Below are positions 6,796 to 34,390 of a DNA stretch of 64,000 nt, one piece after another. The notes beneath the pieces are model-generated. The model was not told the origin of the DNA. It did not search any database and was given only the letters and a program-made list of their open reading frames with translations. This stretch comes from Daphnia pulex (Eukaryota > Arthropoda > Branchiopoda > Diplostraca > Daphniidae): the NCBI RefSeq assembly GCF_021134715.1, contig NC_060027.1, forward strand, positions 1,736,001 through 1,800,000, in the 5' to 3' direction. A program made the position numbers and the translations under genes. The stretch's first letter is position 1. Every line of letters begins with the position of its first letter.

Positions 6796-8994
6796 TTATG
6801 GCATTGAAAATTCAACTTTTTTAAATCCTTGTACGCGACCAGTTAATCCGCCAGTTGGCGGATCCGGAGATGGAGGATTTCTAGCGGGTTGACGCTGTTG
6901 ATAGGGCGTGGTAATCACAGCAGGACCTCTGTAGGATTGTCCTGCACTCTGCTGGTAGTTTCTAATCCATCCGCCATACAGAAAATTAATTATTTTGTAC
7001 AATAACAGAATGCAACACAAGAACATTATTTACATCATTTACCCTAAATAATTGTAAGGGGATGTTGGCGGACGAGGTTCCGGCATTCGGACGTAATTTC
7101 TTTGCTCCACGGAATGAGAATCGTGCATTTCAGGATCCATAAATCCCGAAAAGGAAGAGCCACAAGAAGAAGAATTATCGAAACTTGTCCTTGCCCTTAA
7201 TGCCCTCCGTCTCCTGTGCGACAATTCAATTGGATTAAAAACTTATGTTGTTAAATGAACATTTGATGAAGAAGGAAACTGACTGGTAATCCAGAAAGAT
7301 GAATCCAATAATCAAAATTAAGGCGATGCCACCTAAAATGCCGTAAAGGATGTAAAAGAAAATGTCGTAATTAATTTCGGCAGGTGGATCCGGCGCTTGG
7401 GTGGTGCTGCCGGAACCGGATGAAGTCGATAGCGTGGTTGTGCTACTATGGGAATTCTCAGTCGTCGTTGGGCTGACGACATCCCTTGTCACTGTTGGCG
7501 ATCCTGTGGAGGCCATTGTTGATTCACTATTAAGGCTTGTTGGATTAGTAATAGTCGACGACGTAGTGGACAGCTGGACGCTAGTCGTTGGTTGTTTGGT
7601 AGTGGTAGTCAGCACGGATTTGCAGAGTTGGTCATCGTACCAACTGGGATTGAGATCCTGAAATTCTGTTGCGTTTGAACAGTTTCCGGTGACGAATGGC
7701 AGCAGCTCTCGATAGTCGCGGATGAGCCAGGCCATTTGGCAATCGTCGCATTTTACGGGGTCTGTAATATTTGGTAACGTGCATGCATAGAAATTAAAAT
7801 TATGATGTTATTACGCAATCAGATGTAAGACGTTTTAACTGTTTCTAATGGAGACACTGCCAGGTGTTTTGGAAGTTTGCATTTCCGCCAGGATTTTCTT
7901 GTAGACGGTCGAACTAAATTTTGTCAACTGGTTGCCGTCGAGTGAAACTTTTGCGTTGCCATAATAACCTTGATATGGAATAGAATAACATTTAAAAAAG
8001 ACTTACTTTAACTCTATGAACTTAATATTAAATACCTTTTTCGAAAGAGTCATCAGAGATGTCTGATAGAGAATTTTTCGTGAGGTCTAGCGATTTGACA
8101 TCGGCGGAGAAGGAAAGAGAGCCGGAAGAGATGGAATTTATGTCACACAAGGAAACATCCAACGAATGTAAAGCGACTAAATTGGCCAACGTATTCGGGA
8201 TGGCGGTGATCGATGGGTTTATTTTTCAAAGACACAATTTCTAAATTACTAGCCCCATTCAACGTTGCTAGGATCGACTCTGCTTTTCCATCAGTCAGTT
8301 CCACATTTTCCGTCATGATGAGGTTTTCCAAGCCACCGAGAGATGACCCAGGGAAATTAAGTGAACTGAATCCTTTGCAATTGTTGACGGCTAGCCATTT
8401 GAGACTGGGAAGTGAAGGTAAATTTCCCAGGGATTGGATATTGATGGCACCTTCCAATTGCAACAAGTTTACACTAGTAAAACTGTCCAAAAATGTCCAC
8501 ACCAAAGATGCAATGTTGCAATCGTAGACAACAAACTCTTCCATGGTGGTAGCAGACGACTGGAAAGCATTGCGACGGATTGTCATTAACTTATCTCCGC
8601 AACTGGCAAGACGAATAATCCGTGCTGTATGGATGCCCAACAGTCCAGCAGGTATTTGAGTGTCTCCAATTTTCGGTACCATATCGAAACGATTAATATT
8701 AACAAATCCCGTGTTTCCAGTGAAGGTGTTTTGTATCTCTGTGAAGGGAATTCCAAGGCAAATGACATTCTGGTAACCCGTGTCGACATCTGCGCTACAA
8801 AAGCAATTGCCGCAATCAACAGCATCTGTTCGACCGATGCTACCCAATAACAAAAACAGCTACCACAATTATAAAAGTAAGTTAACACTTTAATTAGACG
8901 CAATAATTAGTAGTGGAATCACGTAAGAAATACTTACAAAGAATGGAACAGCAATAAAAGTGCTGGGAAGATGATCATTTCCTTTCCCATTCAT
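6796..8994 (-). CDS. LRR single-pass membrane protein, copy A, frameshifted
   Basis: Six exons read right to left: 8994-8938, 8859-8036, 7968-7840, 7761-7284, 7213-7043, 6961-6796. The parts are a signal peptide formed across the first splice, a Cys-rich N-cap (CGNCFC), leucine-rich repeats, an LRR C-cap (NPVKCDDCQMAWLIRD), a Ser/Thr-rich stalk, one membrane helix (FFYILYGILGGIALILIIGF), and a basic then Pro-rich cytoplasmic tail. The large LRR exon is 824 bases against 823 in the tandem copy. The extra base lies in the T/A run at about 8216-8225 and shifts the frame into an early stop. Without it the exons would give about 607 residues. The rest is intact, so this may be a recent pseudogene or a sequencing error. 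The cytoplasmic tail is unknown to me. Confidence 0.75.
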
Positions 8995-9821: not shown

Positions 9822-11637
9822 TTATATAACTGTGAAAATTTCTTCTTCAAGCAGAATGCCTGTAAAATGTAGCAACGGTCCGTACAAATTATTACTGAAA
9901 AGCGTTCCGACTGTCGGGGAAATTGACAATTTCACCTCGTCGCCCTTATTCAGATGCCAAATAGACGGAAGTGTCACAGTGAACTGGCGCAAATCATCAG
10001 CAAACGAAGACCCCTTTTGAACGCCGTTGACATAAAAGACGACACTGAAAACTCCCGTGGAGGGCTCGCTGACTCCAGAGAAGTCGAACAAGTACGTGCC
10101 GGACTTTGGGGCGGTGAATATGCCCGTTGAAATGTCCATAGCGCCTCCCTCATTAAGTACCGTGACGTTGAAAATAATCGGAGAATCTTTATTGGGCACA
10201 GAGATACTCGTTGAACTTTGCACGTAAAATTGGACAGGTTCCGATTTGACGTCCACGTATCCAATTCTATTTTGCGCCACATTTTGCCCTGGTGATTAAT
10301 TGAACGGTTACACTTAAGAAACGATAAAAGCTCCAGCTATTTTCTGTTACCTAACGTGAAATCACAGTGGACAAACTCGACGTGTTTGTCTCCTTGAATG
10401 GGATACAGTCCGTTGAGGGTGTAGCCAATCCGCCACAAATCCGCACAAGATCTTGGATAAACAGGAGAAATCGACTTGCCGGAACATATCAATTTTCCCA
10501 GGGTGTGGCTTCCTCCGTTATGAATCGTTCGTCCGAAATTCAATTTGGTTACCGGCAGAACGTTTTTAAGCGTAATTTTTCCTGTATTACATCAGTAGAA
10601 AATTAAGATATTAAGTCTTGGCAAACATATTAAGGCTAAAATACGATACCGTTATCTGATAATGGGACAGCCACATTAGCGTCGCAATTGCATTCCAGAT
10701 CGGGACGGACGCAATAATCATCAATGCCACACTGACAGGTGTGAACGGTGGCGTCAGAACCAGACCAAAATGTTTGAATTTCGCCATCCACATCGTTCCA
10801 CCAAGCGTAGTCGATGCCTTCTACCGTAAAAGGTCCCCCAAGACAATTCACCTGCAATTTACTATTGAAATAAGAACCAAACAATTTTATAATTCTATTG
10901 AATCCAATTGTACTTGAATAGTTTGATGACACTCTGCTGAAAATTCGGCCAGAGCTTTCGCTTGTTTGGCAGTTGTGTTTTGGTAAAGGATCGATCTCGA
11001 ATAACAACCAGGATCGGTGCATTTGGGTATCTCAATTGTCTCTTCGCTATCGTGTCCAAGGGAAGTTGTTCCTGAATAATCAATTAATCTAAATTTAAAT
11101 TTCCCTCTGAAAGTGTCATCCATTTTCTCAAAATTCACCTGTTTTCATGTCGCAATGAACGTAAATGGCTCCATCGCCTATGCCGATTCCATCCGGATCA
11201 ATCCAGTACATTCCGGACTCTTTGAATTCCGGCAGGCCACTGTCTCGGGCTTCCAGGCACGTCCTCGGCGAGAATATGGCCGAATAAGGTGAGACACCAA
11301 TTACTTTACTGGTTTTATCCTCCGTTATTCGAGACTTTAAATTGTTGGAAATGTTGACCAGCAAGACGGACTCGAGTCGCTGGACTTGCTCCTTTAAGGA
11401 ATTGATTTGATCGTTGGCGGAATTCAGTTGAAGTTCTTGGTCCAGAACTTTGGCTTCCAGCTGATCCAATCTGGCCATGACTGTGCCCTGAAAAGATTCC
11501 TACATTTGGCGTAGCAGAGTAAATTAACCTGATGATAAAAATATTCTTACGTCATATTGCGGCTGAAAATCGTAGGGTGTGTCTTGGGCGCTCGAAATCA
11601 CCAGCACCAAACAGCTGACGAAAATTCTGACCAACAT
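9822..11637 (-). CDS. Secreted fibrinogen-like/C1q domain protein, third member
   Basis: Six exons: 11637-11551, 11487-11139, 11071-10914, 10851-10650, 10581-10351, 10288-9822, giving 497 residues with no break. A signal peptide (FVSCLVLVISSAQ) leads to a heptad-rich stretch, the fibrinogen N-terminal motif (SGMYWIDPDG), a contactin-associated-like Cys region (WWNDVDG, FWSGSDATVHTCQCGI), one SCADL module, and a C1q domain ending HFTGILLEEEI. It has one SCADL module where the + strand pair has three, so it may resemble the unexpanded form. It sits between the two LRR copies and is divergent in sequence from the + strand pair. TATA-like CATAAAAGG lies about 30 bases upstream of the ATG, which would leave a very short leader. 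Confidence 0.87.
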
Positions 11638-12427: not shown

Positions 12428-14766
12428 TTAGAATCCAGCTCTTCTTAATCCTCTTACTCGACCAGTTGGCGGAACCGGAGGTGGTTGATTCTTGGCGGAT
12501 GGCGGCTGTTGATAGGGCGTGGTAATCGTAGCAGGACCCCTGTAGGGTTGTCCTGCACTCTGCGGGTAATTTCTGATCCATCACCAATAATTAATTCGAT
12601 GTAACCCAATTGAAAAATAACAACATTATATCGAAAACTCACCTCAAATAATTGTCGGTAGATGTTGGCGGACGAGGTTCCGGCATTCGGACGTAATTTC
12701 TTTGCTCCAGGGATCGAGGATTGTAGTTTTCAGGATCCATCCGTCGAGGTAAGGATGAGTCACGCGAAGAAGAATTATTGAAACTTGTCCTTGCCCTTAA
12801 TGCTCTCCTTCTCCTGTGCGACAATTCAATTGGATTAAAAACTTATGTTGTTAAATGAACATTTAATGAAGAAGGAAACTGACTGGTAATCCAGAAAGAT
12901 GAATCCAATAATCAAAATTAAGGCGATGCCACCTAAAATGCCGTAAAGGATGTAAAAGAAAATGTCGTAATTAATTTCGGCAGGTGGATCCGGCGCTTGG
13001 GTGGTGCTAGAACCGGAACTGGATGAAGTCGATGTCGTAGTTATGCTACTATTGGGATTCCCAGTCGTCGTTGTTGAGTTAACATCACTAGTCGCTGTTG
13101 ACGATCCTGTGGAAGACGTTGTCATTCCACTACTGAGGCTTGTGGGGTTTGTAGTTGTCTGTGAATCGGTTGGCATTGACGATGATGACGTAGTGGACAC
13201 TTGAACGACAGTCGTGTCGATAGATATTGTGCTATTTGCAGTGGTTTGGGTGGTCGATTCAGATATTGTTGACTGTACAGTTTCTGTTGTTGATTCAGTT
13301 TCTTGAGTCGTTTCAAACGTTGTAGTCGAATCAGACGATGTTGTTGGTTCAAATGTTGTTGTGGGTTCAAATGTTGTCGTCGGTTGTTCGGTGGTAGTCA
13401 AGGCTTCACAGAGTTGATCATCGTACCAACTGGGATTGAGATCCTGAAAGTCCGTTGCGTTGGAACATTGTCCGGAGACGAATGGCAGCAGCTCTGGATA
13501 GTCGCGGATGAGCCAGGCCATTTGGCAATCGTCGCATTTTACGGGGTCTGTTATTTTAATTAAATAGTTAGAATGATACTTGCAAATCAAATGCAAAATA
13601 GTTTTAACTGTTTCTAATGGAGACACTGCCAGGTGTTTTGGAAGTTTGCATTTCCGCCAGGATTTTCAGGAAAACGGTCGAACTGAATTTTGTCAATTGG
13701 TTACCATCGAGTGAAACGTTCGCGTTGCCATAATAACCTTGATATAGAATAGAATAACATTTAAAAAAGACTTACTTTGTCTCTATGAACTTAATATTAA
13801 ATACCTTTTTCGAAAGAGTCATCAGAGATGTCTGATAGAGAATTTTTCGTGAGGTCTAGCAATTTGACATCGGCGGAGAAGGAAAGAGAGCCGGAAGAGA
13901 TGGAATTTATGTCACACAAGGAAACATCCAACGAATGTAAAGTGACTAAATTGGCCATCGTATTCGGAATGGCTGTGATCGATGGGTTGTTTTTCAAAGA
14001 AACAATTTCTAATTTACTAGCCCCATTCAACGTTGCTAGGATCGACTCAGCTTTTCCATCAGTCAGTTCCACATTTTCCGTCATGATGAGGTTTTGCAAG
14101 CCACCGAGAGATGACCCAGGAAAATTGAGTGAACTGAATCCTTTGCAATCGGTGATGGACAGCCATTTGAGACTGGGAAGTGAAGGTAAATTTCCCAGGG
14201 ATTGGATACCGGTAGCACCTTCCAACTGCAACAGGTTTACACTAGTAAAACTGTCCAAAAATGTCCACACCAAAGACGCAACGTTGCAATCGTAGACAAC
14301 AAACTCTTCCATGGTGGTAGCAGACGACTGGAAAGCATTGCGATCGATTTCCATGAGATTATTTCCGCAACTGGCAAGATGAATGATCCGTGCTTTATGG
14401 ATGCCCAGCAGTCCAGCAGGTATTTGAGTGTCTCCAATTTTCGGTACCATATCGAAACGATTAATATTAACAAATCCCGTGTTTCCAGTGAAGGTGTTTT
14501 GTATCTCTGTGAAGGGAACTCCAAGGCAAATTACGTTCTGGTAACCCGTGACGACATCTTCACTGCAAAAGCAATTTCCGCAATCAACAGCATCTGTTCG
14601 ACCGACCGAGCTCAATAAGAAAAGCAGCTGCCACAATTTGAAAAGTAAGTTAAAACCTTATTATGTAGACTCAATAAGTAGTAGTAAAATCACGTTAAAG
14701 TGGACTTACAAAGAAAGGAACAGTTACAACAGTTCTAGGATGATGAATAGTCCCAGTCAGTTTCAT
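12428..14766 (-). CDS. LRR single-pass membrane protein, copy B (intact)
   Basis: Six exons: 14766-14710, 14627-13805, 13737-13609, 13547-12884, 12813-12643, 12572-12428, joining to 662 residues. The signal peptide spans the first splice (VVTVPFF joined to LLFLLSSVGRTDA). Then come an N-terminal Cys cap (CGNCFC), about eight leucine-rich repeats, an LRR C-terminal cap (KCDDCQMAWLIRD), a long Ser/Thr stalk with repeated TTFEPTT units, one transmembrane helix, an Arg-rich stop-transfer (RRRRALRARTSF) and a Pro-rich tail. The stalk is about 60 residues longer than in copy A; the rest is close to identical. LRR ectodomains bind proteins or glycans. Receptor function is inferred; there is no TIR or other known signalling domain. 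Confidence 0.86.
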
Positions 14767-15765: not shown

Positions 15766-17977
15766 TCATTTCATTTTGCGGTTGTCCTGCAGGACGAAAT
15801 AAGGATGAAGCAACACTTGGAACATATCAGGGCGTTTTCCAGGATCTTTGTCGACTAACTTGAGAATCAAGTCAATCAGATCCCAACTTAGGTTTGGAAG
15901 ATTTGGTGGAACCAGACCTTTAATCATTGATATGTTTCGCCAGGTTTTATTAGAACTGAAAGGATGTTTTCCTTTGAGTACAATCCGCGCAATTGTAATC
16001 CCCAAAGCGTAAACATCGCTAGCGAAAGAGGCTGGGTAGGCGTCTTCGGGAGCATTGAGAAGTTCGGGTGCCATGTAAGTCTCTGTGCCGGGATGCGAAG
16101 TCTCACTGAATTCGGTTTTGCCCCGTTCCAGTTCTATAGCGAATCCGAAATCGGCAATTTTGGCTAAAACCAAACGAGGGGAGTGGCGCTTGAGGAGAAT
16201 ATTTTCCAGTTTCAAATCCTTGTGAATTATTCCCTTGTTGTGAATGTAAGCGAGACCAAGAATGACTTGTCTCACAAGGATCTTTTCATCTAGGGAGTCT
16301 TTAGGGATCCATTTTAACTTCCCTTCGAAGTAATCCTTTAAAGATCCCTCGCACAACTCCATCACAATGATTCTGATTCAAGAAACCAATAAAGTCTCAA
16401 TTACGATTGAAATAAGCTGGTAGATAGTGTCAATACTTTGCTGGACCCTTTTCGACGGCATCAAGATATTTGACGATGGACAAGTGATCTAGTTTACGAA
16501 GGGTCTCAATTTCTCTCTTAAACACGCCCTCGGCTTCTGGCTTTGGATTGTACTTCTTGCAAGCAGCCGGGAATACGTTTCCATTTCCATCAGTATACTT
16601 GCATTTGTACACTTTGCCGTAAGTTCCTTTTCCCAGTTCTTCTTGTATTTCAATGGAATAGGTCTAAAAAGTAAAAAAAAAGTTTCACACAGACTTAACA
16701 AGCCTTAGTAAATTTGTGAATGATTCTTACCTTATCATTTTCCTTGGGCACGATGCCAGATCCAGATCGGGCGGTACTATGACAAATATATTCTGATAAT
16801 GATTGAGGTGTGGTTTTTAATACCTCGTTCTCTATGTTGGTCGTGACATGAACCTTGGAGAAAAACTTAAAATCAATTTGATAAAATCAATTCATCCCGT
16901 ATTATTTGCTCAACTTACGTCAGGGAGCTTCCTCTCTCCCCTCTCTCCTTGCGTGTGTTGACAGATTAAATTAATGAGCCATTTTTTTACTTTTGTTGAA
17001 GTCATTCTCTTTTCTGGATCACATTCAATCATTCCTTTAATAAGACTTTTAATATCTTCAAAATGATTACAATGAAGCAACCCTAAAAGAACAATAGTTA
17101 TTTTTATTGTTTTACAGTGATTTGACCACCCTTCTAGTGAATGGGAAAAGAAAACGTCGATGCGAATTAAGTTATACTTACTCTCCATATTTACTGGTTT
17201 ACCCTGGCGAATATTGAGCTGTACTTCGATATGGTCAACCGTATCTCCAAACGGGTGAACCACCCCATTTTCTCGCACGAGGAATTCAAAAAAGACGCAA
17301 CCACTTGAAAAAACGTCACATTTCGGTGTTGCTTTGATGTGTTCGTTATTGCCACGTAATTCAGGCGCCATCCACAGAAGAGTCCCTTTAGTTCCACTCA
17401 TGGAACAGGTGTCTCGTGTGCTGATTTCTTTACTTAACCCGAAATCCGATAATTTCATGTGACCTTTCAAGGAAATCAAAATGTTTTCCGGTTTGATGTC
17501 GCGGTGAATCACTTTTTCCGAGTGCATGTATTCAAGGCCGTTGGCAATTTGGTACATGACTTCTATGTCGGTTGACAGCGCTGGACCTTGATACTTTTTG
17601 GCAATCACTTCTTCGAGTGTCCCTGCACACAATTCTAGGACGATGTATCTGTTTTTACAATATTTCAATGGAAATGAACTTCTGAAATGTGAATTAATTT
17701 AAAATGATAATTATTACCTGAAAATTTCATCCTCTTCAGCTGCTAAAATTTTGAGAACGTTTTCATGCTCAAATTTTATTTGAAACTTGATTTCACGGTC
17801 CTTTACATCTAGTCTGTGTAACTCGAGTCTTTTGACAGCTACTTCTTTGTCTTGATGATAACCACGAAAAACAATACCATAACTGCCTTTACCAAGCACA
17901 TCATTTTTCATGTAACTGGTACCGGTTTCCTTGATAAAAGTTATTGGGCACGACGAAGTTTTCTTTGACTCAGCCAT
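15766..17977 (-). CDS. Tandem double protein kinase, IRE1-like first domain
   Basis: Six exons: 17977-17718, 17648-17182, 17082-16919, 16853-16731, 16663-16437, 16372-15766; 615 residues. Kinase 1 (about residues 20-290) has LGKGSYGIV, VAVKR, IHRDIKPEN, DFGLS and APEL. Its ELCAGTLEE and KCDVFSSGCVFFEF segments resemble the IRE1 kinase. Kinase 2 (about 350-605) has LGKGTYGKV, the AACKK lysine, IHKDLKLEN (Lys for Arg in HRD), DFGFA and APELL. It stops right after the kinase (HPYFVLQDNRKMK). No signal peptide, membrane helix or KEN RNase domain is seen, so it is probably cytosolic. The linker and kinase 2 are close to those of the 18.5-23.7 kb gene, so the two are tandem duplicates and this one lacks the ankyrin part. 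Substrates are unknown. Confidence 0.85.
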
Positions 17978-18534: not shown

Positions 18535-21500
18535 TTATTTCATTTTACGGTATGTTTTTACTATCAATTTTTTAACTTCGGGATGGCAATATTGCTTGTT
18601 TCCTATTTGAGTGGCTAAACGGTACGGCGTCTGTCCTAACTTGTCTTCCTGCAAGATGCTTCCACCGTGTTCTAGTAGAAATGTCAACACATTCAACGAA
18701 CTACTTCTATTAGCTGGAATGACATAGTGGACTGGTGTCATTCCCATTCTGTCACTAGCATTTGGGTTTCCTCCATTTTCAAGTAATAACTTGATCGTGT
18801 CTAATCTTGATTGGTCGTTTTTACTTAGGATTGCTATATGGAGAGGTATGCGCTTATTAAAGTCGGAAATATTAGGATTCGCTCCGTGTTCAAGCAACAG
18901 TCTCGTTAGTTTAGTCCCGTGAATTCCCAGATTCGCAGCAGCAAAATGAAGTGGCGTTGTCCCGTTTAAACCCCTTACGTTTGCATCTCCACCATTTTCT
19001 AGGAGGATCTTCATTTGTTCAGGTGCTGTTTCGTTGACGCTATCGGCTGCATAGTGAATGGGAAAGCATTGTTCCTTTTTATCGATAAGATTAGGATCTC
19101 CCCCATTTTTCAACAGCATCTGCAAATTGGATAAGACAACAGTTTCCTTCTGGAATACTGCGGTGTGTACAGGGGAGCGTCCAAACTCATCCACAGCATT
19201 GGGATTGCCTCCGTATTCGATTAGGATTTCTATCAGTTTGGTTCCGTGGATTCCCAAATTCGCTCCGGCCATATGTAGGGGAGTAAGACCGTTGTTACCA
19301 CTAACGTTTGCGTCTCCGCCATTTTCTAGAAGGATCTTAATCTTTTCAGGTGCTGATTCACTGACGCAATCGGCTGCAAAGTGAACAGGAGTGGTTCGTT
19401 TTTTATCAGGAAGATTAGGGTCTCCTCCGTTTTGAAGCAGCCGTTGCAAAACAGCCAAACAAGCACTTGATTCATTTTGATTAACAGCGTAGTGAACAGG
19501 AGAGCGTCCAAGGATATCCACAGCATTGGGATTCCCTCCATTATCAAGTATTAGTTGAACATGTTTAATTTGATCATCACATGATAGATCAACATTTCCA
19601 CTAATCCGATGAAGAAGTGTTTCTCCGTTGTTATTGAGAGGAGTATTCGCTTTTTTTTCATCGACACCGACTAGTTTCCTTATTTCATTACCACAAAGGC
19701 CAATATTCAGTAAGGCGTAATGAACAGGAGTGAGTTCTTCTAAATCTTTAATAGTCAAATCCCCCCCAGAAGCTAATAAAAGTTTCACCTTTTCGTGAGC
19801 GAATTCTCCTTCGTTCTCAGTTGCGTAATGGACTGGTGTTTGACCCAATTCGTCAACGGCATTAGGATCGCTGCCATTTTCTAAAAGAATAGTTATAATT
19901 TCAATATCCTGATGCTCTTCGTTGTCGACTGCTCGATGAAGTGGTGTGCGTTTCTTTTTATCACAAATGTTTGGATTTGCGCCGTTTTCAATCAATTTTT
20001 TCAGGATTTTTGATCCGCAATCTCCATTGTTTAATATTGCTAAATGGACTAACGATATTCCAGTGTGTTCAGTAATGAAGTTGATGTCTTGTTGCAAAGC
20101 TTGTTTTTTCTTAAGAAGCAAATCTAATAATTCCAAAGCAGATTCTCCAATGTTCATCGTTGCTAAATGAATTGGTTCTATAAACCCGTCGTTTCCTTTA
20201 ACGACTGCATCAAAAGCGCCTCCACTGTCAAGGAGTTGCTTCAAAATCTCAGCCGCATCGTCCCCTTGGTTAAGCGCTGCGAAGTGGATAGCCGTGAGTT
20301 CAATTAATGTTTGCTTAGCATTTGGATCTCCCCCCTGTCGAAGAAGAAGCTCCACAATTTTCGGTCCCTGATGAGATGGGTTTTGAACCGCGCAGTGAAG
20401 TGGAGTGCATCCGTTAGGTGGAGAGGGCGCGTTCGGATGTCCTCCATGTTTCAAAACTACTTGCATTATTTCAGCAGCCCAGTCTCCTCCATTACAGGCA
20501 GTAATTTGAACTATTTTTGACATTCCCTCGGTGATCCCACATCTTTGTAAAATCATTTCAGTAACTTTAGCAGCATTATGGGCGTTGCTTTGAATTGCAC
20601 TGTAAACCAATGCTGCTGCAGCTTTCACCCCATACTGATTTAGTAACGAAGACCATACTCGTTCTGAAACGTTGCATTTGCGCAATGTTCCAATAGTTTC
20701 GCTGATAGTTTCTCTATCATTTTCAGAGTTTTCCGAGTACTTGATGCTCCATAGCTCGTCAATGAGTTCCTCGTCGTCGTAGTACAAACTACTCCATTCT
20801 AACTCTGGAATAATCTGCTGATAAAAAGAGAGGTGAAAGGACTAGTACATAAGAAATTAGATAAAAAGCTAGTAACATGTTACCGAATTTCCCAATGGGT
20901 TTGAATGACTGACTAAAATGTCTGGTAGATGAGACCAAAAATAAGGTACGAAAAGCTTTGGTGCGCGTTGAATCAACTTGTATAATCGATGCCAAGAAAG
21001 ATTTTGTGGAATTCCTTGTTCCGCAACCATCTGTAATAAGAAAGGAAATTCAGAATATTATTACATTACCTACACGTAATATATTTACAAATTCAATTTT
21101 ATTTGCAACCTGATTGATTTTATTTTTGGGGTCATATTCGGATTTGATGGCTTCCTTAATTGTTTTTTGGTATTGTTTTGTAGGGAATAGAGTGTCAGTA
21201 TGAACGCCAGGTCGTAACTAGAATATTGAATGTAGTTACAGATACTAGTAGCTACTGACTACCGTATTATCTCAAAAAATACTCACGCTTGTAAACAAAT
21301 TAAAGGTATTGGTCATATTTTCAATTTCTTTTGTAGTTTTCGGCTTGTCTTTGAAGAGAGTTTCATACCATTCTTGGAAATTGCGATTGCTGAATATTTC
21401 GTTCTTCCGTTTTATTTCATCTTTCTCCGGAAGAAACGTGAAAGCAGCCCAAAGTTGATCGGAAAAATGTCGTTTGGTTCGGTCGTTCGTCAAAACAAAA

Positions 21501-23703
21501 TAAGGATGACGCAACACTAGGATCATCTTAGGACGTTTTCCAGGATCTTTGTCGGTTAACTTGAGAATCAGGTCAATCAAATCCCAACTTAGATTTTGAA
21601 GATTTGGTGGAACCAGACCTTTAACCATGGATATGTTTCGCCAAATTTCGTTGGAACTGAAAAGATGTTTTCCTTTGAGTACAATCCGCGCAATTGTAAT
21701 TCCAAAAGCGTAAACATCGCTAGCGAACGAGGCTGGGTAGGTTTCACCAGGAGCACTGAGTAGTTCGGGTGCCATGTAAGTCGGTGTGCCGGGATGTTCA
21801 GTTTCACTGAACTCGGATCTGCCCGGTTTAAGTTCCTTGGCGAATCCGAAATCGGCAATTTTGGCTAAAACCAAACGAGGGGAGTGGCGCTTGAGGAGAA
21901 CATTTTCCAGTTTCAAATCCTTGTGAATTATTCCCTTGTCGTGTATGTAGGCGAGACCAAGGGCAACTTGGCCGATAAGGATCTTTTCATCTAGCGAGTC
22001 TTTAGGGATTCGTTCCAACTTCCCTTCGACGTAATCTTTTAAAGATCCTTCGCACAACTCCATCACAATGAATCTAATTCAAGAAACCAATACCAATATT
22101 CAAGTTACAATTACGATTTAACTACTAATTGATGCTGGTAAAATGTAAATACGTTTTAGAATGCTTTTCGGTAACATCAAGATATTTGACGACGAACAAG
22201 TGATTTAGTTTACGAAGGGTCTCAATTTCTCTCTTAAACACGTCCTCGGCTTCTGGCTTCGGATTGCACTTCTTGCAAGCAGCTGAGAATGCGTTTCCAT
22301 ATCCGTCCGTATAATCGCATTTGTAAACTTTGCCGTAAGTTCCTTTTCCAAGTTCTTCTTGTATTTCTATGGAGTGGGGCTAAAAAAAAGACTTCGCTAA
22401 AAAAAAAAAAAAAAAAAAAATCAGTGAACAACGTAACAAGAGTTCTTACTTTATTATTTCCTTTGGGCACGACGATGGGCGTTTCTCCAGTTCTAATGGT
22501 GCAATGCCAAATATATTCAGAGAATAATCTAGGTGTGGTTTTGAAAGCTTCACCCACTATTTTGAAGCTGTCTATAGTTTCTGATTCAAGAAGCTAATAA
22601 AAAACAACTTAGGAGCGTACAAATTTGTAAATAATGGAAAATATTTTTTCATTCCATCTTCTGACTTACAATTTCCTTTAAATCGTCAAATTCTTCATCT
22701 TGGAACTTGCCCTCATCTACTGACTCGAACCATTTCTGCAGCTTTTCTTCATCGTTCAATATCAGACCCACTTTATCATCCATTAAATCTTGGATCAGCC
22801 TTGATCGTCCTTCGTCTGTGAAACGGGTAAATAAAGGGTGTCGCAGTATTGTGCCTGCTTCGACGACACTGTTTGAAAGGCATCCATGAACAAGAAGGCT
22901 GATTAAATCAAAGGCGAGGGCTCTGAAGTTAGCATCGATTTCAGTAAGACTGTCAAGAGGGACGGATTCATTCGGCTCGGCTTCTTCTTTAGTTGCAGCA
23001 GAGTAAAACAAGCAACCGAGTTGGAATAGATCGGTTTTGGCATCCTGCAATTATTAAAGGTAAAGAGCATTGTACCCTATCACTACACTGCTGAGTGTCA
23101 ATAAATTATTACCTTGCATCCGTATCCTGCTAATTTCACAACAACCCGCTTGGATTTTGAATCTCTTTTCCAAAACAGGACATTTTCCAACTTTAAATTT
23201 CCGTGCTGGAATTTTTGGCGGTGAAGATAATCAAGACCGCAGGCTATTTGCCACATGACATCAGTTGCTTTGACATGCGATGCAACACTCTCGTCAAGTG
23301 TTTTGCGGCAATAGTCCAGCATTGATCCCTGACATAATTCCATCACAAGGTAACTGTAAATATATGCATCAAGAAAATCCTTCAGAGCCCATATTTCAGA
23401 ATTTAAAATTAAATGATTAATTAATGCTAGTAGAAATAGTGTGTTTTACCGGATATCATCTTGGATGCTACACTGTAAGTACTGAACTAGATTATTGTAA
23501 CACAATTTGAGCAACTTTTCCCAGTGCTGCTCATCTTGGTGCCCACTTATCTGACTATCCGTGCTGTTCACTAAAAATTGTTTCACAGCGACTGGCTGAC
23601 CTTTAAAAGTTCCTTTGAAGACTCCTTGGCCGTTGCCGTCACTTCCCAAAAGGTTGGCTGAAGACGCACTGAATTGTAAATCTCCAAAACAAATTTCTGC
23701 CAT
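18535..23703 (-). CDS. Pseudokinase-kinase-KEN-like-ankyrin repeat protein
   Basis: Nine exons: 23703-23450, 23353-23113, 23044-22670, 22593-22450, 22379-22153, 22073-21287, 21217-21110, 21030-20884, 20817-18535; they join in frame to about 1521 residues. Domain 1 (1-230) keeps VAVK but has QHGNLK for HRD and AGYG for DFG, so it should be a pseudokinase. A tail (HPLFTRF...RLIQDLMDD) follows, resembling the start of a KEN region. Domain 2 (about 340-605) has LGKGTYGKV, AACKK, IHKDLKLEN, DFGFA and APELL. Residues 605-760 include FVPYFWSHLPDILVSH, recalling the end of the IRE1/RNase L KEN domain, but I see no counterpart of its catalytic N/H segment. The last exon carries about 17 ankyrin repeats (TPLH/SPVH phrases). 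Exon 9 could be a separate gene; acceptor and phase favour one protein. No signal peptide. Confidence 0.75.
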
Positions 23704-26505: not shown

Positions 26506-29500
26506 ATGTTAACTACGGTTAGAAATGAGCTGATGAGCAGCGATTGTAATACGGAAACGGAATATTACCCTTTTGGGAACACGCGAGTTCGAAACGTGTT
26601 CAAGGATTTCTATTTAGGAGGGAAAATCTATAGTAACGTGAATCAAGTGACTAAGGTATTTACTTTGCGACCAACTATTATCAATTTCTTGTATATCTTT
26701 AGACTTTATTGTTGAGGCAGTCACCAATTTACGTTTGTTATTTAGGTTCTCTTATTGGGTTGTGGTGATCTAAGAAATACCTTTCAAGCAACAACTTCCA
26801 AGAATCCTAAAAATTTAGAAATTCATCTCAATGATATTCATCCTTCTGTCTTGGCTCGAAATATCATAATTTTGAAAATTGTGTCAGCACGTGATTTCAA
26901 TCCTGACAATGATGAAGATTTTTGTTTTCTGTGGGATGTGTGGTACAATATTGATTGGCCAGAAGAAACCAGGAAGAGGTTTCTTACTGTTGTAAAGGAA
27001 TTGATGAATGAGAAATTACCGGATAATGTCTCAATTCCCAACAATAGTCACTTTGAAAAGATTAAGAATTTGTGGAGCAACTGGCATTCCGTTTCCTCTA
27101 GGAACAAAACTGATGGTGAATCACTCATGAAAAAAATCTGGGGACAAAGGTAACTTTATTAAAAGTAACTAAATAAGTTTACGAGTGGCATGTTAGACTA
27201 ATACTTATATATTATTTATCAGGAATCAGTGCTTGTTGGACTTGTGGGAAGTCTTGTATCCAGGATATTTACAAGAAAAAGCAACATTAAAAAATGCTGA
27301 TCTCTACACTACCTCAGTAAATGAACTGGCTGAACAGTTTCATAATCGTGAAGGGTTTACAGGATTGGCTCCTTGTGTTAAAAAAAAAATTTACAATGAA
27401 GTGCTCAAATGCTACAGAAATGGCAGTAGCCGCCTTCAAAATGACGACAAATTGGTGTGCGTCAACCCAACTATGCTGAACCCCGAGACCCATGATTGGA
27501 AACTCTTCTGCTTATTAACTCCGTTTGAAGGTTATCTGCCGATGGAAAAAGGAGAGCTGATAACTTCAGTTGAAGAAATCATGAACCAATCCTGCTCCAA
27601 AATACTCAAGAGATTGGTGTCTTCCTATCTCAGACGAATTGAAACAATCGAAATCGTTTTTCATTTGGAAGAAGCCATAAAACATTGCTATTCAGACGCA
27701 AACAAGTTTGACGTCATCGACTGCTCTAATTTCGTGGATCATGTAGGGTTAGCCAATTTAGTTGTTGCATGCTGCCAAAAGTTGTCAGATAACCCGAATG
27801 CAGTTTTTTATACCGAAATAATGACTGACCGTCATCATTCGGCCAACACAATCGTCGAGACATCCCTTTGTGTTCCATTGAGTTTGATTCCCACCATTTA
27901 CGGGTTAAGATTGGCTGACCATGTTGAATTAAGGGATTCTGCCGTAGATTACTTACGTTGCATCACCCTTCAAAGAGGACGCCCAGTGAATCTCTGCTGG
28001 CAAAAAGTACCACACTTTCAGAACATCAAATTGATTCCTTCTCCTGATTTAAGTCGATGCCTAACAAAGCTGGCCAAATTCTGCCATCTAACAACATTTC
28101 CAAAACCTGCCTCTCTAACAAGCAGTGCTGGAAGTGAAATCTACTACACTCCCCTAACATTCAACTATATTTTGGATTCAATGATCAAGAGACTGGGACA
28201 TGATTTTTTGTTACCAGACATATGTCAGCTTGAAATCGCTCCCCAATTCAGACTGGCTCGAAGATTTCTGGAGGATTGGAAGAACGGGAAGAAAATGAAG
28301 AAATTTTCTGCTGGTTTTGTGTCCACAGTGAAGTCTGCAGTTAGCGAAAAATCTACCACTCTACTTCGGCTAGTTTTTGTCCGAAAAGCTTCTTATAAGC
28401 TTAATCCTGACTTATCCGGACCTGATGTTCATTTCATCGACAATTTTGAACTTGAATTGAAACATTCTTCAAAAGGAACAACAGTGGAGGCGGTGTCGTT
28501 TTTACTGGCTCATGATCATAGTTTCGATGATTCGTACGGTGCATTTATTTTCAATGCGTTGAATGGAACGCCACTCCTACTCTTAGAGTGTTTTGAATCG
28601 ATGCGGGTAGAGGAATATAGTGTACCGTACCCGATTGAACAAAACAAATCTCAAATTTCGCTGGATCCTAAAGAAAAAATGTACATGAAGGTTGAAAGTT
28701 GTATCGAGTCAGAAGAACTGTACACTCTTAGGATGACCATTGAATGTAATGGAAATGTTTCAGGTGAATAATTTTACATTTCAAATGGGTATTGATGTTG
28801 TAAGTACCCATTTTTAATCTTTCCATTTTTACAGGATTGAAGATATCCACCAACGAGCAGGCCCCCTGCGAATCCTCCCATGACGTCACAGTTTCATTGA
28901 CTCAACCCAACAAAATCAAACCGTTGTCCTTAACATTTCCATTTCCGATCCTTGCGAAAAATATTCAAGCGACGCTCCATCGAAAAAGTCAACATGTCGA
29001 TTTGTTGGTGAAGAAATCCCTGCTGGAACCTTGGCCATGCGAGTTTCACACTAAAAAGTCTAAATGGATAATTGACGATTTAGTTCCCTGGAAAAACGAG
29101 TCACTCAAGTCTGAAAATGTGTTCAACAGTGTGGAACACCATCTGAGCAGCCAGTTTTTATCTAAGGATTTCGATGTAGACCATTATCTTGATTCGAAGA
29201 GTTCTGCTTTGGAAAGCTTGCGCTTTAAGCTTGTAGCATTGATGTTCGATAATTCTGAGTTTGTCAGTTACGGTCGAAATGACGATTGGTACCTGTTGAA
29301 ACTCCATCGGCCCCTTCTTACTTCACCAATGGGAAGCCCCATATTGCTGATTACTGCTCTCGATGATAACTATACAAAAAATATTTCGAAGAAAATATCT
29401 CTAAACCCAACTGTGCTTAAAGAAGTTATGGATCACTTTAAGATTTACGAGAAAGTTTTTCCACTTGGCACACCCAAGGACAAGTTGGATTTGGATGCCG

Positions 29501-29890
29501 AGACCGAAGAAGAGTTTCAATTGTTTCGTTTTCTCCTGCGTTTGAACTCAACTAGGTAATCCACTTACTAGCTTGCTTAAAGTTCGTTCCTACATAACTG
29601 ATTTTCTGTTCACACAACTCAGAATCGAGCCCAGCAAATGGCAGAAGGAGAATATTCCTCTAGGAGGTAGCAGTCCTTGGCTTGCTACTTTCCTTTCGCC
29701 TCTCTACCAGGATTCCGTATCGACGGAAAGCATCAAGGATGAACCAGCTGACGAGAAGTGCTGTGCCGCTTGTAAGAAAATCCCTGAGAAGTTGAAGATT
29801 TGCAGTCGTTGCCGTTCCACTGTTTACTGCAGTGTCGAGTGTCAACATTCTCATTGGCCAATGCACAAACTCATTTGCAAGAAATTGTAA
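26506..29890 (+). CDS. DUF4470-MYND zinc finger protein, copy 1
   Basis: Five exons: 26506-26655, 26746-27149, 27223-28763, 28835-29555, 29623-29890; 1027 residues. Residues 50-180 match the DUF4470 pattern (VLLLGCGDLRNTF, IHLNDIHPSVLARNIIILKI, FLWDVWYN), a domain also found at the N terminus of the dynein assembly factor DNAAF3. The C terminus is a MYND zinc finger with the expected Cys/His order (CAAC, CSRC, YCSVEC, H...C). The middle, about 700 residues, is shared with the next gene and is not recognised. MYND fingers bind proline-rich partners; the role of this architecture is unknown to me. The start chosen is the first ATG of exon 1. An alternative start a few codons downstream is possible. 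Confidence 0.85.
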
Positions 29891-30986: not shown

Positions 30987-33900
30987 ATGATTAGTCCTAC
31001 ACGATGCCAACCCCTGGAAGATTTCCCTCTTTATTACCCATTTGGAAGCACTCGAGTTCGAAACGTTCTGAAATATTTCAAAGATCAAAGCTCTGGTGAG
31101 AAGACTAATAGTAAAACTACTCAGGTATTTTGTTTGACATGCTTTCAGTGTGGTCTTAGTCTTACCATGTTGACCGTAATTAATTTATCTAGGTTCTCTT
31201 TCTTGGATCTGGGGACATGAGGGAAACTCTTCAGGCAACAACAGCTGAGCATGTCCACAATTTTCACTTCCATCTTAATGATAATTGTCCATCAATTGTG
31301 GCTCGCAACATCATGATCTTGAAAATTCTGTCAGCTCAAGGTTTTGATCCCAATAAGGAAGAAGATTTCAGCTTTCTGTGGGATGTTTGGTATAATACCG
31401 AGTGGTCAGAGATCACTAGAAAACGATTTCTCATTGTTTTAAATGATCTGTTGGATGAGAAGTTACCAGAAAATGTTATTGTTCCTGATCCAAACCATTA
31501 CAAAAGTCTGAAGAAAATATGGAAAGTTTGGCACACTATTTCTTCAAGAAGCCAATCAGATTCTGAAACGCTGTTGTGTGAAGCCAAGAAAAAGAGGTAA
31601 CTCAATTTCAATTACATTCTTTAACTTATATCTAAATTGAAAACATTCACACTCTAGATCTGAACTTCTTGTGACATCACACGAATTTACCGTTAACCCC
31701 CCTCGCAATTCAGATGAAAAAATAACCCATGCCAAAGCTTATTCAAGAGCAGTAAACGAGATCACCCAGTATTTAATGAAGAGAAATGCGATTGGAGACC
31801 TGGAAGACTCTGTGGGGCGGATAATTGAGCAGGAATTTCAAGCGTTTTACAAAAGAGGCAACTGCCGATTCAAAAATGAATTGAAAACGGTGTGTATTAA
31901 TCCGACGTTTCTAAATCCTGACACCGAGCAATGGCAAGTCCACTACTCATCGTGCCCTTTCCTTGGCTATCTTCCATTATCGCAAGAAGAACTAATAACG
32001 TCAGTCAAAGACAAAATTCTTCTACCCACCTGCCAGAAAATTCTGAAAAACACACTGGCTTCCTACCGAAGTCGTATTGCAGACATCCAAGTATTTTTCC
32101 ACTTAGAAGATGCCCTGGAATTTTGTTTCACGGACGCAAACAAGTTTGACGTCATCGACTGTTCTAACCTCGTGGATCGTGTCGGACTTGCTAATCTCCT
32201 CAACGCTGCAAGTGGAAAATTGTCGAATAATCCGGGAGCCATTTTGTTTACTGTAAGTAGGGGTTGGACCGAATTCGCTCCTACTGTAGAGATGTACGTC
32301 GAGCATGTTCTTTGCTGCCCTTTGAGGATGATCCCCACAATTTATGGATTCAAACTGAATGAGCACGTGGAACTTGGATCTCGGTGTCCCCCCAGTTTGC
32401 ATTTTGCCATCCCGGCTAACCTTTCCTGGCAGAAAGCAATTCCTTTTCAGAACATTGTTATGTCTCCTTCCTCCTCTTTAACGGATTTTTTGAACAAGCT
32501 GGCCCAGAAATGTTTTGTTGGTGAGCGCTTTCCAAACCCCAGTCAGGTTTTAAGTTACCAATTGGCAGTGTCAGAGAGGCATCATTTCTCTCCGCTAACA
32601 TTTCACTACATCGTCAGCTCCATGAGGCAGCGCCTTGGAGGAGATCACTGGATTAAATATGCTCTCCTATCGGAAATTTCTCCCCTTTTCAACATGACAA
32701 GACGTACATCGGAGGCCTGGGAAAAGGGCCTGGGAATTTTGAAGATGACAGCAGAAATACCCATCAACTCTATTAATAGAGATGCATTAAAGGTTTTAAT
32801 TCCGCAATTGGGTTTAGCCACTTTTCGCTTGGCTCTTATGCCATGTAGTCCTTCTACAAGCCATTTTATTCACGGAATCACTCGCAAGTATACAAACATC
32901 ACTTTTTCCGGTACTATTGGATCTTACATCATCGACAATTTCTCACTAGAAATTAACGAAAAAAGCGAGAAAATTGTCGCTACCTTTTTAATTGCGTCTG
33001 ATCACAACCTTCCTGAAGTGTACAGTGGATACGTGATTGAAAGTGTGAATCATTGTCCTGTGCTCAGTTTCGGTTCTCTGAAATCCATGCTCACTGAAAC
33101 GTTTCATCTTCCTTACCCGTTTTCTCGTCCAGTACCTTCCCCTGTGTTTGTTCCCAGTCCTGGTGTATCGTTCATGAAAGTCGCCAGCTGTACCGAGTGC
33201 GAGCATCAATTTAAACTGAAGATAATCTTCAATTGCAACGAAACTGTTACAGGTAAACTTTTGTTGCGTTTATCGCTAAGCTAATAATTTAAATTCTTTT
33301 TCGTTCGATTTCAGGACTAACGCTTTCCACCGATCAATTACTACCGTGCAAGTCTGCACATCAAGTTACTCTATCTCTAAACCAGCCTTCCAAATCGAAT
33401 TCTTTGACTTTGTCATTTCCTTATCCTATTCTTGTCCCTGGACTCAGCGTTACTCTTCATCTTAAAGACCGTTTTATTGACCTTATATTGAAGAAAGGAT
33501 GGTGGGAGCCGTGGCCGGTTGAGTTCCAATCGAACGAAGAATGGAAATGGAATGTTGATTCTTTGAAACCTTGGAAAAATTATGTGAGCCGTTCCATTCC
33601 GGGAGTTGACTGCACCACGTTGAATTTCCATCTCCAATCGCAATTTATCTTGGATTTTAAATTGAATGATCCAAGACCAAGAGATGTATCTCCAGTCATA
33701 GAACCTTCCCACTGGAATTTAAGGGCTGAGCAATTGAACGAGAGAGAAGCTTTGCAATCTCTCCGGCAAAGGTTGAAATCGCTACTTTTTGACCCAGCTA
33801 CAGAGGATCGCGAATGTTTTGGCATTCAAACAATTGATGAATCGTCAACTACGGATTGGCGCATCTTGGTTTTAATCCACAAGCCCCTTCTCATATCTCC

Positions 33901-34390
33901 TCTGGGCAGTCCGATTCGATTGTTGACTGTGATTGACAAACAGATGGCTAATGTCCTTATGGAACAGAAAATGTTAAATGAGGAGACATACGCGAAGGGA
34001 TACAATGGAATTATCGGCTGTATTACAGGAAAAACGGTCGAAATGATCTCTGTTGAACCCTACGAATTGCTGCTATGGAACTTGATTTTGAGACTCAACT
34101 CGACTAAAATCGTGCCCGGTTCAGAGCAAACAAGACTCCTTCCTTCGGGAATGAACAGCTTTTGGTTGTTTGCTACCTTCATGTCTCCGCTTTACGCCTA
34201 TGCTCCTGCTCATCCAAATAGTATCCGCGCGGTGTTGTCTACACTTGCCGACGAAAATCGCTGTGGAGCTTGCAAGAAAGACCCCCAAATTCCGAAGCGT
34301 TGCAGTCGCTGCCGTTCCATCGTTTATTGCAGTGTCGAGTGTCAGCGCAGTAATTGGCCGCAACACAAACTGCTGTGTAAGCGCAAGTAG
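30987..34390 (+). CDS. DUF4470-MYND zinc finger protein, copy 2
   Basis: Four exons: 30987-31124, 31193-31596, 31658-33252, 33315-34390; 1070 residues. It begins like copy 1 (YYPFGSTRVRNV), has the DUF4470 block (VLFLGSGDMRETL, HLNDNCPSIVARNIMILKI, FLWDVWYN), and ends with a MYND finger (CGACKK, CSRCRSIVYCSVEC, H...C). The first three introns sit at the same places as in copy 1. The fourth intron of copy 1, just before the IEPSKW segment, is absent here and the last exon reads straight through. Tandem duplicate, same strand, about 1.1 kb apart. Function unknown; see copy 1 for the domain family. Confidence 0.86.

Follow-up and report, generated by a model that had tools for sequence, protein, structure and literature searches.

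Does the crustacean Daphnia pulex encode a cytosolic sensor for RNA decay that was built from the parts of RNase L and IRE1 in a new order? The question is raised by a minus-strand gene at 23703-18535 of a 64,000-nucleotide stretch of contig NC_060027.1 (positions 1,736,001 to 1,800,000 of assembly GCF_021134715.1). This whole stretch is called the window below, and positions refer to it. A preliminary description had read the gene as a pseudokinase, an active-looking kinase, a KEN-like segment, and ankyrin repeats joined in one protein. Our computational analysis retained all of these parts except the KEN domain. We give about an even chance to the reading that the gene encodes a soluble, receptor-like signalling kinase of the IRE1-type group, in which the ankyrins would sense, the pseudokinase would regulate, and the output would be phosphorylation instead of RNA decay. 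Phosphorylation is preferred to RNA cleavage because no nuclease was detectable.

The coding sequence was rebuilt from the DNA as nine exons with consistent phases, GT-AG introns throughout, and no internal stop codons. A spliced protein-to-genome aligner, fed with the hand-made model, returned identical exons. The single nine-exon gene with summing phases was thereby upheld, and both junctions on which it depends, 20884/20817 and 21110/21030, are in the rebuilt model. The donor of exon 7 is weak (GTTGCA), and an alternative phase-0 donor after 21074, 36 bases downstream, would add 12 residues. The donor at 21110 is favoured because exon 7 ends at the same residue in one of the two intact paralogues introduced below (L022) and within one residue of it in the other (L021). 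An exon-5 acceptor lying 17 bases upstream was rejected, as it disrupts the frame.

From the N- to the C-terminus, the 1521-residue protein consists of a pseudokinase, an active-looking kinase (kinase 2), a segment of ~155 residues (segment 2), a linker of ~105 residues, and 17 ankyrin repeats. Fifteen of the repeats were found by pattern matching and two more were seen in the printed register, in agreement with the roughly 17 estimated before. The protein has no membrane-type hydrophobic stretch (the best 19-residue hydropathy mean is 1.59), so the earlier statement that it lacks a membrane anchor holds for the window protein; nor do the 1521 residues contain a part resembling the lumenal sensor of IRE1. 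The NCBIfam matches for the ankyrins and kinases were all far under the cut-offs.

Relatives were sought in the window's own genome using the post-kinase region as the query. Three clear ones were found. Two lie on contig C11 together with the window gene, L021 at ~1.5 Mb and L022 at ~0.15 Mb from it; the third, L023 on contig C7, is broken by frameshifts. A fifth locus, L024 on C9, preserves a portion of the kinase and the beginning of segment 2. Confident matches to segment 2 together with the linker are thus confined to four loci, and L024 shows a partial trace of the segment. No relatives were confirmed in the viral and other-genome contig collections. L021 and L022 are free of frameshifts and stops and share the nine-exon layout, their exon-end phases agreeing with those of the window gene at seven of eight and eight of eight exon ends, respectively. 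Their first 26-27 residues lie outside the alignment, and an in-frame ATG is present upstream. Depending on the domain, they are 41-76% identical to the window gene, and the ratio of nonsynonymous to synonymous substitution rates (dN/dS) is 0.09-0.36 in every domain of the three pairs, though these ratios are rough because the synonymous sites are near saturation. The shared order and these ratios together indicate that a protein with this arrangement has long been maintained, and the two kinase domains with C-terminal ankyrins that had been proposed are found in the same order in both paralogues. Judged from these sequences, a decaying copy or a mis-join is an unlikely explanation of the window gene. 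L022 (G000:C11:1906400-1912700) additionally has a C-terminal hydrophobic stretch that is present neither in the window gene nor in L021, and this paralogue may sit on the membrane through a putative tail anchor.

Parts of the gene at 23703-18535 of the window; residue ranges are approximate.
Feature	Residues	Positions	Strand	Remarks
Coding span, 9 exons	1521 in total	23703-23450, 23353-23113, 23044-22670, 22593-22450, 22379-22153, 22073-21287, 21217-21110, 21030-20884, 20817-18535	-	
Pseudokinase 1 (exons 1-3)	~1-240	22820..23703	-	Pfam Pkinase 3.5e-18 over residues 23-163; HGN, AGYG; activation segment missing
Segment 1 (after the pseudokinase; ends of exons 3 and 4)	~241-338	22450..22819	-	Similar to segment 2; no family assigned
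Kinase 2, active-looking (exon 5 and most of exon 6)	~339-605	21500..22379	-	Pfam Pkinase 2.2e-10 (exon 5), 2.3e-36 (exon 6)
Segment 2, supposed KEN (end of exon 6, exons 7 and 8)	~606-761	20884..21499	-	No Pfam KEN match
Linker, ~105 residues	~762-865	20506..20817	-	The only Pfam family of the exon is ankyrins; linker found only in four gene copies
Ankyrin array, 17 repeats	~866-1521 and stop codon	18535..20505	-	Pfam Ank_2 4.9e-94

The window gene, L021, and L022 were compared at the kinase motifs. In pseudokinase 1 of the window gene, HGN replaces HRD and AGYG replaces DFG; L021 has YGN and AGSYG at these sites, and L022 also lacks the lysine of VAVK. The stretch from DFG to the aspartate of the F helix is deleted in all three copies. 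The N-terminal domain is therefore a pseudokinase, as was supposed, the HRD aspartate, DFG, and the activation segment having been lost in each copy. Meanwhile, kinase 2 retains the glycine loop, the lysine, HKD, DFG, and APE in all three, and its motifs agree with the active-looking kinase of the preliminary description. Each copy thus carries a degenerate kinase followed by one with intact motifs.

Both kinase domains appear to belong to the IRE1-type group. The best PDB chain was IRE1 for kinase 2 (97.5 bits, followed by TYK2 at 91.0 bits) as well as for pseudokinase 1 (41.5 bits, with the next chain at 34.8 bits). When the genome was queried with the kinase-KEN part of IRE1, kinase 2 of all three copies was among the top non-IRE1 rows. 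Furthermore, in the IRE1 gene of the same genome (L026) a phase-2 intron immediately precedes the strand Y-IALELC, and both kinases of the window gene have an intron at the same position and in the same phase. The PDB matches, the recovery by the IRE1 query, and the shared intron are the reasons for favouring an IRE1-type origin.

The reading as a soluble signalling kinase is favoured because the nine-exon order is intact in two paralogues with low dN/dS in every domain, and because the motifs of kinase 2 are kept and the activation segment of the pseudokinase is lost in all three copies. In the mechanism we propose, the 17 ankyrin repeats would bind a protein or other ligand, and the N-terminal pseudokinase, devoid of an activation segment, would hold or help the adjoining active kinase. 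The pseudokinases of JAKs and GCN2 act in this way on the neighbouring active kinase, and it is by analogy with such pseudokinase-kinase proteins that ligand sensing and regulation by the pseudokinase are suggested. Binding or clustering would then lead kinase 2 to phosphorylate itself and its targets. We infer phosphorylation as the output of the protein; RNA cleavage would not be expected.

The KEN similarity ascribed to residues ~605-761 was searched for in several ways, none of which gave clear support. The Pfam profile of the KEN nuclease (Ribonuc_2-5A, PF06479) matched segment 2 in none of the three copies at E<=10, while it was positive in two other genes of the genome. A profile built from the three copies of segment 2 retrieved no KEN chain from the PDB at E<=10. 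The hhalign probabilities against KEN were 1.3 and 0.5, and that between segments 1 and 2 was 4.2. In comparison with IRE1, segment 2 was at chance level. Block-shuffle p values were 0.05 to 0.86. It was also ranked against decoys, namely 204 unrelated ORF (open reading frame) segments from which pieces of the window gene had been excluded. Out of 205, segment 2 ranked 4th for human RNase L, 39th for Daphnia IRE1, 91st for a KEN gene on contig C4, and 133rd for human IRE1, whereas two true KEN pairs ranked 1st. With the window-gene pieces excluded (204 versus 224 segments), ranks changed by no more than a few places, and the small shift favoured a decayed KEN domain. Any hint of KEN from the PDB profile, hhalign, or the decoys is weak at best. 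Neither segment 1 nor segment 2 contains the strict catalytic motif R-N-x3-H in the window gene, L021, or L022; Daphnia IRE1 and human RNase L have it, and the C4 KEN gene also lacks it. Loose Rx4-6H matches were found only in L021 and L022, at differing places. AlphaFold2 models of segment 2 had a predicted local distance difference test score (pLDDT) of 35.5 from the single sequence and 38.7 with four window-only rows, too low to define a fold. The IRE1-like gene on C4 (L027, G000:C4:1980500-1986500) combines a KEN domain lacking R-N-x3-H with a degenerate HGN kinase.

These results bear directly on the original idea of an active sensor for RNA decay, RNase L- or IRE1-like but with rearranged parts. 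The kinase, pseudokinase, and ankyrin parts are all there, but the idea depends on the KEN domain, which remained undetected by the Pfam, PDB-profile, shuffle, and decoy tests, and the catalytic motif is missing from both segments in the three copies, with its loose form scattered in two of them. A search of the genome for OAS gave no match either, this search having had no positive control. We consider such a sensor very improbable. It is a different matter whether a KEN domain has decayed into segment 2 and, likewise, into the shorter segment 1. A kinase-KEN unit of IRE1 would then have been duplicated inside the gene and its nuclease site lost, the remnant serving for packing, dimerisation, or RNA binding. 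The empty Pfam and PDB-profile searches, the low hhalign probabilities, also between the two segments, the chance-level similarity to IRE1, and the first ranks of true KEN pairs in the decoy test all speak against it. We regard it as a possibility worth keeping in view, though somewhat doubtful, and it can be compatible with the signalling-kinase explanation.

Our model could also have mis-joined two adjacent genes, one coding for the double kinase and the other for the ankyrins. The weak donor of exon 7 would allow for this, as would the adjoining partial copy of kinase 2 at 16835-15769, which carries no ankyrins. Against it, the same exon order is found in two paralogues elsewhere on the contig at an overall synonymous divergence of 1.1-1.6, and even the frameshifted copy on C7 still holds the kinases, segment 2, and linker together, which leaves the mis-join hardly credible. 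The signalling-kinase reading has weak points of its own. The IRE1 affinity of kinase 2 is a matter of the small margin over TYK2. A kinase tree of 29 rows, from which two short pseudokinase pieces, a partial IRE1 ORF, and the C4 gene had been left out, had long branches and did not resolve the deep forks. Given the low-pLDDT models, segment 2 may also be a folded but unrecognised nuclease.

The relocation of the ankyrins had been presented as a singular new order of RNase L and IRE1 parts; in this genome, it is not singular. The kinase exon of an IRE1-type kinase-ankyrin gene, used as a query, gave at least 128 matches at E<=1e-12, and kinase 2 of the window gene gave at least 136 at E<=1e-6. 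Both are exon-level counts: the family of the window gene is among them, a few rows are doubled, and the weakest matches probably include other kinases; we estimate about 100 IRE1-type kinase exons in the genome. Among PDB chains, IRE1 was by far the best match of one representative of this expansion (1.5e-19 versus 1.4e-13 for GCN2). In at least 28 of the 103 rows examined out of the 128 matches, ankyrins of matching style followed on the same strand within 2.5 kb; in four, they lay upstream. None of the 30 rows on C11 had downstream ankyrins with that ankyrin query. Since the kinase-then-ankyrin order is common and segment 2 with the linker is restricted to four loci, the window gene is best placed as a special form within a large local expansion. 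Within the window, a separate IRE1-type kinase of the expansion lies at 16910-17977 on the minus strand; the closest compared row is L044, with 71% identity.

The accessible part of a review of HEPN domains (PMC3710099) lists kinase-KEN fusions with ankyrins, lineage-specific KEN expansions in Oikopleura and monocots, and a Daphnia expansion of a different HEPN domain with 46 copies; that part does not mention an IRE1-type kinase expansion in Daphnia. We found no literature on the kinase-ankyrin group or on such an expansion, most subscription journals being outside the coverage of the search. More broadly, the genome might hold a large lineage-specific radiation of IRE1-derived kinases, ~100 copies at the exon level, in which the RNase was lost and C-terminal ankyrin arrays or pseudokinase partners were acquired; these proteins would act as a diverse set of intracellular receptors for stress or immunity. 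Its double-kinase form would be represented by the window gene and two relatives, where either a degenerate KEN or a new helical domain would occupy the KEN position. We put this forward as speculative and rather unlikely.

Compared with IRE1 (ERN1), the kinase-KEN protein of the unfolded protein response, the window gene shares the kinase type and the position of the phase-2 intron, but it lacks the lumenal sensor, the membrane segment, and a detectable KEN domain, and has an extra pseudokinase and ankyrins. Like RNase L, it joins a pseudokinase with ankyrins in a soluble protein. Its ankyrins are C-terminal, whereas those of RNase L, which bind 2-5A, are N-terminal; moreover, a second, active-looking kinase is present, and neither KEN nor its catalytic motif was found. 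The IRE1-type kinase-ankyrin genes of the same genome (for example, L031, L034, L036, L037, L038, L046, and L047) also have a kinase followed by ankyrins, but in those examined a single kinase exon precedes ankyrins of another style. Tandems in which an intact-looking kinase immediately follows a degenerate one are likewise known from JAKs and GCN2 and recur at L028, L032, L035, and L040, where a pseudokinase with HGN, HGQ, or HGD for HRD has another IRE1-type kinase within ~2 kb and no ankyrins nearby. In place of JAK or GCN2 accessory domains, of which Pfam recognised none in the window gene, this gene carries ankyrins.

The supposed new RNase L thus gives way to a cleaner question: how, in a single crustacean genome, an IRE1-type kinase came to lose its nuclease, multiply many times over, and combine with ankyrins and pseudokinases, and what the resulting proteins sense. 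They would offer a natural test of the role of the IRE1 kinase without KEN.

Other features of the window were also recorded. The partial copy of kinase 2 next to the gene (15769-16835, minus strand) is 82-83% identical to kinase 2; a stop codon closes it immediately behind the kinase, and segment 2 is lacking. Two similar predicted proteins are encoded on the minus strand at 8146-8859 and 13800-14657, the second having a leucine-rich repeat match just below the Pfam cut-off, and a minus-strand ORF at 9825-10295 contains a C1q domain (Pfam 1.4e-13). On the plus strand, two similar gene-sized stretches stand in tandem at 26746-29556 and 31193-34387; the first begins with DUF4470 and the second looks alike.
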